Shown: positions 1,239 to 48,252 of the stretch, one piece after another
Position numbering within the stretch: the first letter of the stretch is position 1
How the letters are laid out: each line of letters begins with the position of its first letter
Source: Clostridium pasteurianum DSM 525 = ATCC 6013
GTDB taxonomy: Bacteria; Bacillota; Clostridia; Clostridiales; Clostridiaceae
Length of the DNA stretch: 64,000 bases
Direction: 5' to 3'
Assembly: GCF_000807255.1 (NCBI RefSeq)
Contig: NZ_CP009268.1
Span: 3,874,384-3,938,383 of the forward strand
Notes under the pieces: model-generated
Databases searched by the model: none
Told to the model about the DNA's origin: nothing
The model's input: the letters and a program-made list of their open reading frames with translations, nothing else
Position numbers and translations under genes: made by a program

Positions 1239-1898
1239 CTATTCTTCCATCATATCTAACACTTGAGTTTTACTATTTTTCTTCTCTCTGATAAATGCAA
1301 TAATTGCGGGAATAATTGATATTGCTATAATACTTATGACTACATAAGAAAAATTCTCTTCTACTATTGGCAAATTTCCAAAGAAATATCCACCTATTAA
1401 GAATAGAGATACCCATAAAGATCCCCCCAATATATTATAAACTATAAATTTAGAATAATGCATTTCTCCAATACCTGCTACAAAAGGCACGAATGTCCTT
1501 ATTATAGGTATAAATCTTCCCAATACTATAGTCATAGAACCATGTTTTTTATAAAAGCTTTCTGCTTTTTTAAGATGCTCTTTATTTATGTATTTTAAAT
1601 CTTCCCTTTCAAAAATCTTTATACCTATTTTTTTACCAATATGATAATTGACAGTATCTCCAATTATCGCAGCCGCTAAAAATATGATATAGAGTGTTAT
1701 TATACTAAGGGATCCTCTTGCTGCCAGTGCCCCTGTTGCAAAAATCAAAGAATCTCCTGGTAAAAAAGGAGTAACCACTAATCCCGTTTCACAAAATATA
1801 ATTAAGAAAAGTAAAACGTAAGTCCAAGAACCATAATTTTGAATAATTATATTTAGGTATTTGTCAAAATGGAGTACAGTATTAATTAATTTTTCCAT
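1239..1898 (-). CDS. DedA family membrane protein
   Basis: This 219-residue integral membrane protein belongs to the DedA/SNARE-associated family, whose bacterial members are implicated in undecaprenyl-phosphate or phospholipid flipping and envelope homeostasis. The family signature is present: FLPGDS at 45-50 in the first re-entrant region and GRFIPIIRT at 127-135, with the conserved Arg and Pro. Hydrophobic segments lie at roughly 26-46, 65-82, 136-158, 161-178 and 184-204. The ATG is preceded by a GGAGG site about ten bases upstream. It is flanked by its own terminator and by the pgi terminator, so it is probably monocistronic. Substrate specificity cannot be read from the sequence. Confidence 0.88.
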   Translation of the reverse strand: MEKLINTVLHFDKYLNIIIQNYGSWTYVLLFLIIFCETGLVVTPFLPGDSLIFATGALAARGSLSIITLYIIFLAAAIIGDTVNYHIGKKIGIKIFEREDLKYINKEHLKKAESFYKKHGSMTIVLGRFIPIIRTFVPFVAGIGEMHYSKFIVYNILGGSLWVSLFLIGGYFFGNLPIVEENFSYVVISIIAISIIPAIIAFIREKKNSKTQVLDMMEE

Positions 1899-1949
1899 AA
1901 TATTTATTTCCTCCTAATAATGAGAATTTAATCTTTTGCCATCTAATTA

Positions 1950-2024
1950 ATTTTTAAAAATAAAAATCAGAAATCTTAGTTATTTTCTATACAGTAAAAC
2001 ATAATTCAACTAAGCTTCCTGATT
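1950..2024 (-). terminator. Terminator of pgi
   Basis: An imperfect 15-16 bp stem (arms around 1965-1985 and 2007-2023) is followed on the minus strand by a T-rich run. It lies about 75 bases after the pgi stop. Confidence 0.7.
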
Positions 2025-2098
2025 TATTGTTAAAATTTATATAATATTATTTTAACAAAATCCTCTGATGGTAGCACTATCAGCAGAATTTGTCTTTA

Positions 2099-3454
2099 TT
2101 ACTTACCTAACCTTTTCTCCAGTTCTTCTTTTTTAGATTCATAACCTGGTTTTCCAAGAAGAGCAAACATATTTTTCTTATATTCTTCAACTCCTGGTTG
2201 ATCAAATGGATTTATTCCTAACAAATACCCACTGACCCCACAAGATTTTTCAAAGAAATATAGTAAGTATCCAAAATAATAATCAGTCAATTCTGGCACA
2301 TTAACCACAATATTTGGTACTCCTCCATCATTATGAGCTAAAACTGTTCCCTCAAATGCTCTTTTATTTACATAATCCATAGTCTGACCTGCTAAGAAAT
2401 TCAAACCATCGATATTCTCATCACTTTTCTCAATAATAATATTTTTTCTAGGAGTTTCTACATTAATTACAGTTTCATATATATTTCTCATTCCCTGTTG
2501 AATATATTGTCCCATAGAATGAAGGTCTGTTGAAAAGTCAACTGCTGCTGGGAATATTCCCTTACCATCTTTTCCTTCACTTTCACCATATAATTGCTTC
2601 CACCATTCACCAAAATAATGTAAACTTGGTTCATAATTAACAAGTATTTCTGTTGTCTTACCTTTTCTATATAGGGCATTTCTAGCTGCTGCATATCTAT
2701 AAGCATCATTTTCTTCTAATTTAGGAGAACTGTATGCTTCTCTTCCAGCTGCTGCACCTTTCATAAGTTCATCTATATTAATACCTGCAGTTGCAATTGG
2801 CAAAAGCCCAACGGGTGTTAATACACTAAATCTTCCTCCAACATCATCTGGAATAACAAAAGTTTCATAACCTTCTGCATCTGCTAAAGATTTTAAAGCA
2901 CCCTTTTCTTTATCAGTAGTAGCATATATTCTTTCTTTAGCACCATTCTTACCATATTTCTTTTCAAGATAATCTTTAAAGATTCTAAATGCTATAGCAG
3001 GTTCAGTAGTAGTACCTGATTTTGATATAACATTAACTGAAATATCCTTTCCTTCAATCGTTTCCAATAAATCCACCATATAAGTAGAACTTATATTATT
3101 TCCTACAAAAAATACATTTGGTGATTTTCTCTTATCCTTTGAAATAGTATTATAAAAAGTATGTGATAAAGTTTCTATAGCAGCTCTTGCCCCAAGATAT
3201 GATCCACCAATTCCAATTACTATAAGTACATCTGAATCATTTCTTATTTTTTCTGCAGATTTTTTTATCCTTTCAAATTCTTCTTTGTTATAATCTACCG
3301 GAAGGTCAATCCATCCTAAGAAATCGTTTCCTTGGCCAGTCTTACTGTGAAGCATATTATGTGCCTCTGTAACCATTGGCTGAAGATATGTAATCTCATT
3401 TTCATTTAAAAAAGAATCTAATTTAGTTAGGTCTAAAGATAATTTTTTTGTCAT
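2099..3454 (-). CDS. pgi: Glucose-6-phosphate isomerase
   Basis: This enzyme interconverts glucose 6-phosphate and fructose 6-phosphate in glycolysis in the cytoplasm. At 451 residues it has the usual length of the short Firmicute form. The phosphate-binding segment SKSGTTTEP is at 144-152, the family signature [14 protein letters not shown] at 206-219, and the catalytic Glu, His and Lys regions ([23 protein letters not shown]) follow in order. The start has a good AGGAGG site. Its neighbour glmM also works on hexose phosphates, but a terminator separates the two, so it is probably transcribed alone. Identification is secure. Confidence 0.97.
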
Positions 3455-15104: not shown

Positions 15105-15184
15105 TTAAATCTACCATATTTCTATCTATTTTTAATTCAATATTAAATTTTTTGTTATTATTGTATTATTTTTTTTTAACTGGG

Positions 15185-15290
15185 AATAATACCTTTAGCC
15201 TAAGTCATACGGGGGAACCATATTTTGGGGTGAATCGCTTTTTGCGTAGGTTTTGCCTTTACCAAACCCGTCAGCTAACCTCGTATAATA
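15185..15290 (+). ncRNA. c-di-AMP riboswitch (ydaO-yuaA leader)
   Basis: The conserved blocks of the ydaO class occur in order: ACGGGGGAACCA near 15209, TTTGGGGTGAATCGC near 15225, GCGTAGG near 15244, and CCGTCAGCTAACCTCGTA near 15268. The class binds cyclic di-AMP and normally lowers expression when the ligand is abundant. The ribosome-binding site (15291-15298) follows directly with no obvious terminator, so control could be translational. The controlled gene is a cell wall hydrolase, the most typical target of this riboswitch class. Confidence 0.92.
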
Positions 15291-15309
15291 AAAGGAGGAA
15301 AGAATATAA

Positions 15310-17890: not shown

Positions 17891-18313
17891 ATGGATAATG
17901 CAAGTATAGCACATACTAGATGGAATTGCACATATCATATAGTGTTTATTCCAAAGTATAGAAGAAAAATAATGTATGGTGAAACAAAAAAAGATATAGT
18001 AGAAATTTTAAAGAAGTTATGTGAAATGAAGCAGATCACATTGATAGAAGGAAAGGTTTGTAAAGATCATGTTCATATGTATATAGCAATTCCACCAAAA
18101 TTATGTGTATCTGAGTGTATGGCATATTTAAAAGGAAAAAGTGCATTAATGTTGTTTGATAGGCATCCAGAGTATAGAAGTAGATGGGGAGAAAGACATT
18201 TCTGGGCAAGAGGTTATTATGTAGCAACGGTAGGAAATGTAAATGAAGATACAATAATAGAGTATATAAGGCAACAAGAAGAGAGTGATAAACTAGAAGA
18301 CGGAAGAAAATAG
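17891..18313 (+). CDS. tnpA: IS200-type transposase TnpA (HUH/Y1)
   Basis: The 140-residue protein is a Y1 transposase acting on single-stranded DNA. The HUH motif is His60-Val-His62 (DHVHMYI), and the catalytic Tyr is most likely Tyr125 in the helix IIEYIRQQ. Length and order of motifs fit the family, and all key residues are present, so it looks intact. Its translation start is behind a hairpin that hides the GGAGG. It points in the opposite direction to the flanking trxA and TPR genes. Confidence 0.93.
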   Translation: MDNASIAHTRWNCTYHIVFIPKYRRKIMYGETKKDIVEILKKLCEMKQITLIEGKVCKDHVHMYIAIPPKLCVSECMAYLKGKSALMLFDRHPEYRSRWGERHFWARGYYVATVGNVNEDTIIEYIRQQEESDKLEDGRK

Positions 18314-47621: not shown

Positions 47622-47671
47622 CCCCAAAATTTAATAAAATGGGGACTAAGCTAGAATTCTAGTTAATCCCC
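47622..47671 (-). promoter_or_regulatory. Two mutually exclusive stems before ecfA1
   Basis: On the minus strand GGGGA (47671-47667) can pair with TCCCC (47645-47641), enclosing the palindrome CTAGAATTCTAG. The same CCCCA (47644-47640) can instead pair with TGGGG (47626-47622), which is the ecfA1 ribosome-binding site. This is the layout of a translational switch or of a terminator/anti-terminator. It is inferred from pairing only. Confidence 0.55.
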
Positions 47672-47682
47672 TTTTCACCTGA

Positions 47683-47840
47683 CTAACTTGGCGTAAATCT
47701 CCAATGCACTCTGTACAGCCCTCACACAAAATCAAAAAAAAGATTTTGGCTCTCTACTTGCACTCTGTGAAAGTGATTCGCACCAAATTAAAATTTGGGC
47801 TCTCTACTTTTCTTCAAGTGGGAGTTCAACGCCAAGTTAG
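47683..47840 (-). ncRNA. Structured element: 12-bp inverted repeat around two tandem hairpin modules
   Basis: CTAACTTGGCGT (47683-47694) and its exact complement (47829-47840) close a region. Inside it are two direct repeats 54 bases apart, each starting with CACTCTGT (47707 and 47761) and ending with GCTCTCTACTT, and each containing its own hairpin (CAAAATC/GATTTTG and CCAAATT/AATTTGG). It is transcribed between rplQ and ecfA1. I recognise no known RNA family. It could be a cis-regulatory RNA of the ECF genes or a small mobile repeat. Confidence 0.6.
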
Positions 47841-47860
47841 CCATGCATTTGCAGTTCTAA

Positions 47861-47895
47861 AATTCAGATGGAGTAAAAGAATTCCCACCTGAATT
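47861..47895 (-). terminator. Hairpin after rplQ
   Basis: The stem AATTCAG/CTGAATT with a partly paired interior starts 16 bases past the rplQ stop, followed by TTTTAG on the minus strand. It is a weak terminator candidate at the end of the alpha operon. Confidence 0.5.
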
Positions 47896-47910
47896 AAGAA
47901 CTTGCTTCAA

Positions 47911-48252
47911 TTATACTAATTCTAATATAACTATTTCAGCTCCGTCGCCTCGTCTTGGACCCATTTTCAGTATTCTAGTATATCCGCCATTTCTGTCAAC
48001 ATACTTAGGTGCTACTGTATCAAACAATTCATTAACTACCTTTTCTTCTCTTACAAATGAAAGCACTTGTCTTCTAGAGTGTAAATCCCCTCTTTTTGCA
48101 AGAGTAACCATCTTTTCTGCTAAGTTTCTTGTTTCTTTAGCTCTTGTTTCAGTAGTTTCTATTTTACCATATTTCAAAAGACTAGTAACAAGATTTCTTA
48201 ACATTGCTTTTCTTTGGTCAGTTGGACGACCAAGTTTACGATATCCTGCCAT
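47911..48252 (-). CDS. rplQ: 50S ribosomal protein L17 (bL17)
   Basis: A 113-residue L17 with the conserved start [21 protein letters not shown] and the ending [16 protein letters not shown]. It lines the peptide exit tunnel region. It is the last ribosomal gene of the alpha operon, 12 bases after rpoA, with an AGGAGG-type site. Confidence 0.98.

Follow-up and report, generated by a model that had tools for sequence, protein, structure and literature searches.

The repeat between rplQ and ecfA1

We analyzed a 64,000-nucleotide stretch of the genome of Clostridium pasteurianum DSM 525 (the window). Between rplQ and ecfA1, the window contains a folded element whose sense is on the minus strand, which is also the strand of both genes. 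(The gene names are those of a first-pass annotation, and by eye they agree with the translations of the open reading frames.) The first base of the element is the base right after the stop codon of rplQ. The first-pass annotation placed a structured element at 47683-47840, with perfect 12-bp arms (CTAACTTGGCGT at 47683-47694 and ACGCCAAGTTAG at 47829-47840) that close 134 bases. Inside these, it described two tandem modules, with CACTCTGT at 47707 and 47761 (54 apart) and GCTCTCTACTT at 47749 and 47799, and two hairpins that differ in sequence (CAAAATC/GATTTTG at 47727/47742 and CCAAATT/AATTTGG at 47783/47792). These features are all present as described, but the element is longer than was proposed: it continues to 47910 and includes an additional 5' hairpin. 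Its parts are:

47673..47910, minus strand: the whole element, a two-module copy; ends set from 90 copies with both ends and from the empty site in relatives
47853..47903, minus strand: 5' hairpin (AAGTTCTTAATTCAGG...CTGAATTTTAGAACT); pairing tabulated over 89 copies
47818..47842, minus strand: 5' strand of the closing frame, which takes in the right arm at 47829-47840; from the pairing table, and the frame covaries across genera
47760..47809, minus strand: module 1, of the CCAAATT/AATTTGG type; 74.7 bits with the module model (R1)
47706..47759, minus strand: module 2, of the CAAAATC/GATTTTG type; 29.5 bits with R1
47681..47705, minus strand: 3' strand of the closing frame, which takes in the left arm at 47683-47694; from the pairing table
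47673..47683, minus strand: conserved 3' end GTCAGGTGAAA; most of the 90 copies listed have GTCAGGT[TG]AAA here

For 47660-47860, the predicted folding energies are -61.7 kcal/mol on the minus strand (z = -3.94) and -49.4 kcal/mol on the plus strand (z = -3.78). For each strand, 0 of 200 shuffles were as stable. Because of these z-scores, and because the arm recurs across the genome (see below), we consider the element to be beyond chance.

There is another hairpin between rplQ and ecfA1, beyond the element (GGGGACTAAGCTAGAATTCTAGTTAATCCCC on the plus strand, 47641-47671). A similar form is present in 4/4 same-genus relatives; this hairpin is the older, conserved feature of the interval.

Copies in the source genome

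If one mismatch is allowed, the arm CTAACTTGGCGT occurs 121 times forward and 121 times in reverse across the genome, while a reversed control pattern occurs 3 and 2 times. With a 201-base query, we obtained at least 44 match rows from the source genome (the best 40 of 162 candidates were scored), and with a 261-base query, the similarity continues to about position 47911 of the window. In the copies that show a second arm, it is mostly ACGCCAAGTAAG; therefore, the window copy, with its perfect inverted repeat, is a variant. Full-length BLAST matches share 81-95% identity with the copy in the window, so recent activity in this genome does not follow.

In loci and stretches taken from the source genome, we found 98 matches to the 5' end and 95 matches to the 3' end, of which 90 were paired and 8 and 5, respectively, were left unpaired. 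In the sense direction, a copy begins with TTGAAGCAAG, which is followed by the long 5' hairpin, by the frame strand (GGCTTACTTGGCGT..ACTCCCAC), and by TTGAAGAA; then come the modules, the returning frame strand, and GTCAGGT[TG]AAA. The lengths of the copies cluster near 135, 185, 240, 293, and 345 nt, which correspond to 0, 1, 2, 3, and 4 modules. Among the 90 copies with both ends, 28, 20, 36, 3, and 2 fall into these classes, and the other is a truncated copy of 90 nt. (Modules were counted by length; one copy in the zero class, 325147, is truncated yet contains a module, and there are a few degenerate modules.) Thus, the module of about 50 nt is present in tandem, 0-4 times per copy, as in BOX-type repeats with variable modules. 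The copy in the window has two.

The nearest open reading frames flank the ends of the copies or slightly overlap them (89 copies), as would be expected for a dispersed, mainly intergenic repeat. Relative to the sense of the element, the orientations of the neighbors were ++ for 34 copies, -- for 29, -+ for 14, and +- for 12 (89 of 90 copies scored, with a simple ORF caller built for this analysis). Because the sample of 90 was fixed by listing order and BLAST rank, these counts are not a random draw; they give no clear preference, and both orientations are used.

Copies seem to be denser on the 0-2.2 Mb replichore: by a hand count among the matches listed, exact CTAACTTGGCGT on the plus strand occurs 45 times there and 9 times beyond it, with replichores taken from GC skew.

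Empty sites, ends, and target

In four of four same-genus genomes, the interval between rplQ and ecfA1 lacks the element, and there is a near-exact empty site. For instance, G003 has GTGTAA-CTAAAAGGGG (GTGTAACTAAAAGGGGATTAAG) where the source genome has GTATAA, then the element ending in GTGAAA, and then AGGGG (AGGGGATTAAC). This comparison gives no target duplication at the site, and the target differs by a few bases at most.

For 14 copies from G100 and G102, we joined the flanks and searched the relatives; there were junction-spanning matches for 2. The copy at L156 is missing from five aligned loci (L310-L314, from G098, G099, G101, G103, and G104), and the copy at L149 is missing from two (L321 and L333, from G101 and G103, at 68-69% identity).

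Across 84 of the 90 copies, flanking repeats of 2-9 nt were as frequent as expected from shuffling, which gives no sign of target site duplications. Only 7 of the 20 terminal consensus bases match, so the ends are not inverted repeats. As neither terminal inverted repeats nor target site duplications were found, we rejected a MITE of the DDE type. The copies lie in AT-rich sites, and A is enriched at position -1 (82% of 84 copies); beyond this A, the 84 copies have no fixed target word of 4-5 nt.

Conserved folding

We aligned 17 modules from three genomes, and 97.3% of the cells in this alignment were paired. The covariation score was 0.262, versus 0.123 for shuffled alignments and at most 0.051 if the structure was slid along the alignment. 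For the module alone, 4 pairs change on both sides (3.5 in shuffles) and there are 5 pair types (7.6 in shuffles), neither of which is above the shuffles. Typical changes are AAGC/GCTT versus AAGT/ACTT, the CCAAAT versus CAAAAT stems, and RCC/GGUGY, with R-Y as A-U or G-C.

We also aligned the frame together with one module, using 26 sequences from across genera. (These are single-module copies chosen by hand, leaving out copies that were truncated, had several modules, or lacked the signature; L070 and L073 were put in manually, and L059 (own genome) was kept though it is visibly misaligned by one base.) In this alignment, 93.2% of the cells were paired, and 17 of 35 pairs had compensatory changes on both sides, versus 11.0 in shuffles. 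The covariation score was 0.303, versus 0.118 ± 0.009 for shuffles and at most 0.060 for slid versions, over which the scored structure is favored because it was drawn from these same sequences. The number of pair types (39, versus 35.9 in shuffles) is not outstanding, as 56 of 500 shuffles reached it. Unaided, RNAalifold returned nearly the same structure. The frames differ strongly in sequence: for instance, GAC/GTC is replaced by GTC/GAC, and GAGCGG/CCGCTC by CGGATG/CATCCG. Judging from these alignments, the folded structure is real and is conserved across genera. The first-pass annotation had read the difference between the two hairpins in the window as compensatory change, and the covariation across genomes bears this out.

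Within the source genome, the copies have 52 G-U and 50 A-C mismatches (setting aside two positions where G-U is the consensus). In the cross-genus tables, too, no clear difference between G-U and A-C is visible by eye. The departures from pairing in the source genome would be what neutral decay of resident copies gives. From the equal numbers of G-U and A-C, we infer that the structure matters for propagation and not for each resident copy.

Distribution of the module

With the model of the module (R1), we found matches in 77 of 206 genomes of the family, from 22 of 46 genera (E 1e-4), and in 16 of 391 genomes of the class (E 1e-5), with 5 outside the family. The module extends to two further families. 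Because at most 15, 30, or 40 candidates were scored per genome, the counts per genome are minimum numbers; in the family and class searches with the model, the filters were stricter. Collections of plasmids and phages had no match to one query element (L066 from G139) at E 1e-5.

Different frames surround the same module. In G003, the modules at L055 are inverted relative to the frame, and L057 is an array with no recognizable frame. At L133 in G102, a module lies inside the apical loop of another, and the host stem (CCCAAAT...GATTTGG) is intact around it; L130, L131, L132, L135, and L139 begin like L133. In G031, the 5' hairpin carries a module in its loop (L071, L167, and L168). Apparently, modules came to sit in the loops of other hairpins by insertion without target duplication.

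Other inserts are found as well. At L067, L146, and L147 in G125, the 5' strand of the frame has an extra hairpin of about 50 nt between its stems. At L133, L135, and L156 (G102 and G100), the loop of the 5' hairpin holds a different hairpin unit (CTACGACCAC...GGCATTTAACC). Thus, loops are also occupied by other small units.

In the two other families, 15 of the 20 loci that we fetched have 1-2 units upstream of a cognate tRNA gene (L288-L295, L300-L302, and L304-L307, from G293, G423, G458, G489, and G573; the tRNAs are Lys, Thr, Phe, Gly, and Leu). Each unit comprises the 5' piece of a tRNA gene, cut in the D-loop; next come a module whose ends read TAAGY/RCTTA and a stretch of about 60 nt. 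At L300, the tRNA piece is only short, and at L302, the end of the contig cuts the tRNA. Of the other five loci, L297-L299 have no tRNA, and L296 and L303 hold tRNAs but are loci that the pattern used here did not resolve.

Similarity to known repeats and RNA families

In the available parts of the paper that describes them, the BOX repeats of Streptococcus pneumoniae and S. suis have two outer parts around a variable number of tandem folding modules and a predicted RNA fold; in S. suis, boxA/C and boxE/F surround the same module, and repeats are inserted into each other (PMC3049150). The terminal inverted repeats of BOX are said there to resemble those of ISSpn2 (PMC3049150). By description, the clostridial element is similar in its composite build, in having several outer types around one module, and in mutual insertion. 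Unlike BOX, it lacks terminal inverted repeats and duplication, and its module spans many genera and also adjoins 5' pieces of tRNAs.

The BrickBuilt MITE of Porphyromonas gingivalis, as far as the accessible parts of its description go, is an intergenic element with 23-nt tandem units between a leader and a tail, with small inverted-repeat ends, and is reported from strains of one species (PMC4596501). Both are intergenic mobile elements that contain a minisatellite of tandem units; the 23-nt units, the inverted-repeat ends, and the description from strains of one species set BrickBuilt apart. Clop-1 from C. perfringens (93 bp) and Clot-1 from C. tetani (74 bp) are described, in the parts available, as intergenic stem-loop repeats (PMC2267715). 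We compared these by description and not by sequence: they too are clostridial, lie between genes, and are predicted to have a common structure. In C. autoethanogenum, a putative extra CRISPR array with three 55-bp repeats and 16-bp spacers has been described (PMC4022347, seen in part). Going by that description, these repeats could be candidate modules.

At gathering scores, the only match to Rfam 15 in the window was a c-di-AMP riboswitch, away from the element. (This is a ydaO/yuaA leader at 15171-15302, with 68.7 bits.) In the region of the element, searching up to E 10 gave four matches, all sub-threshold, and 20 loci from other genomes, searched up to E 1, gave three sub-threshold matches, none of them on the element. 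As these sub-threshold matches are not credible, we rejected a known RNA family. In a library that lacks most subscription papers, none of the papers listed describes the element family by title or abstract. Nor is the element shown in the available parts of two surveys of structured RNAs, supplementary motif tables aside (PMC6429828, which includes Clostridium novyi among others, and PMC2864571).

Probably a mobile repeat, not a riboswitch

The first-pass annotation proposed that tandem aptamers at this locus form a cis-regulatory RNA that controls the operon of an ECF vitamin transporter, and it named a small mobile repeat as the main alternative. The covarying structure is real, and the element does lie between rplQ and ecfA1 on the same strand as these genes. 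But there are about 120 copies scattered across the genome with no clear orientation preference, Rfam matches in the region do not rise above the chance level, and the position before ecfA1 is not conserved: the element is absent from this site in all four same-genus relatives. Similarly, none of the 15 rplQ loci of named relatives that we scanned contain the module (80 loci were found, in a collection that may leave out the source genome and those very near it). Scattered copies and a lack of conserved pairing in relatives had both been named as grounds against the regulatory proposal; the copies are scattered, and the pairing is conserved. Control of the transporter by tandem aptamers is thus extremely unlikely. 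A dedicated regulator of ecfA1 is ruled out by the scatter, the orientations, and the absence from orthologous loci. The copy between rplQ and ecfA1 has no dedicated regulatory role; if it did affect the transcript, this would be a side effect.

Given the scattered copies and the empty sites, the mobile repeat was the correct alternative. The dispersal, the presence or absence between species, the modular build, and the folding across genera together indicate that the element between rplQ and ecfA1 is very probably a copy of a non-autonomous, mobile, interspersed repeat with a composite, BOX-like build. It consists of the 5' hairpin and the closing stem (the frame), whose apical loop holds 0-4 tandem hairpin modules of about 50 nt. 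We propose that one strand, as either RNA or single-stranded DNA, would fold and be recognized by a trans-acting enzyme, most likely via the very conserved module, which would allow the copy to move. If so, the structure would be selected during spreading, and resident copies would then decay. Insertion would occur at AT-rich sites, mostly after an A, and without target duplication.

What moves the element?

IS200/IS605-type (Y1) transposases and reverse transcriptases are both common in the family. Y1_Tnp is found in 156 of 200 family genomes, with 6 matches in the source genome, and RVT_1 is found in 129 of 194. Among the genomes listed, however, several that carry the module have no match to one or the other: Y1_Tnp has no match in G027 (which is a single contig), G153, or G099, and RVT_1 has none in G125, G099, G001, G002, and others. 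G027 has five modules of identical score, and G125 has at least 16 module matches, of which five are listed at identical score. These identical scores suggest recent movement in both genomes. If those copies did move recently, then neither Y1_Tnp nor RVT_1 alone is required. As neither is found in every carrier, we rejected the idea of a single obligatory helper. Also, at two loci (L144, by open reading frames and sequence, and L133, by sequence), no transposase was seen between the ends of an element, as an autonomous copy would have.

Several features of these regions are worth recording. The gene between the two copies of the element at L133 resembles a protease by eye. Beside the element at L144 (G108), positions 1300-3150 have, by eye, CRISPR-like arrays interleaved with repeated segments hundreds of nucleotides apart. 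And the window itself encodes a Y1 transposase of the IS200 type at 17918-18277 (G000:C1:3892301-3892660), and two other copies in the genome score equally.

REP/RAYT and IS200/IS605-derived elements consist of hairpin units and have neither terminal inverted repeats nor target site duplications. The clostridial element shares these properties: its hairpins are subterminal, it is rich in hairpins, and its structure is strongly conserved. Together with the frequency of Y1_Tnp, this makes movement of single-stranded DNA by a Y1 transposase a tentative possibility. But elements derived from IS200/IS605 have a fixed target of 4-5 nt at their left end, whereas the target word of the clostridial copies is only the A at -1, and some carriers have no Y1 match, including the genome with five modules of identical score (G027). 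The strand bias is also weak, with 43 versus 24 copies having their sense opposite to the leading strand. (These numbers were counted by hand from exact and one-mismatch arms among the matches listed for 0-1.29 and 3.06-4.35 Mb; GC skew defined the leading strand.)

It is doubtful that the element is instead SINE-like, with an RNA that is copied by a group II intron or another reverse transcriptase. This would fit with the RNA-like covariation, the A-rich 3' ends, the lack of terminal inverted repeats and target site duplications, and the frequency of RVT_1, as well as with the modules in hairpin loops and behind tRNA 5' pieces that are cut in the D-loop. On the other hand, G-U is not in excess of A-C mismatches in the source genome, and RVT_1 has no match in carriers such as G099 and G125, the latter with its many module matches. 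It is quite unlikely that a folded RNA or protein-binding site that is useful to the host (for instance, in transcript processing) spread and was then kept. The module is highly conserved and is found in two further families, but mismatches in resident copies show no strand preference, both orientations are used, and copies are missing from orthologous sites. At some sites, the folded RNA may nevertheless serve the host.

Implications

Returning to the mobile repeat, it is conceivable, if unlikely, that what moves is the module of about 50 nt itself, and that it is directed to the loops of folded nucleic acids. It would target the apical loops of frames, the loops of other modules and of the 5' hairpin, and, in the two other families, the D-loop of tRNA genes. 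If this is true, then the module is mobile and the large elements are the hosts of a tiny hairpin parasite. It would also imply loop-directed insertion, at the level of single strands or of RNA, by a mechanism that has not yet been described; the position of modules within hairpin loops, and behind tRNA pieces cut in the D-loop, may be a hint of this.

More broadly, more than a third of the genomes in the family (77/206), and some in other families, contain a structured, many-copy element that has no above-threshold match in Rfam. This element can mislead searches for riboswitches as well as annotation. Since genera share its structure while individual resident copies appear to be decaying, the nature of the molecule that is moved, RNA or single-stranded DNA, is testable.
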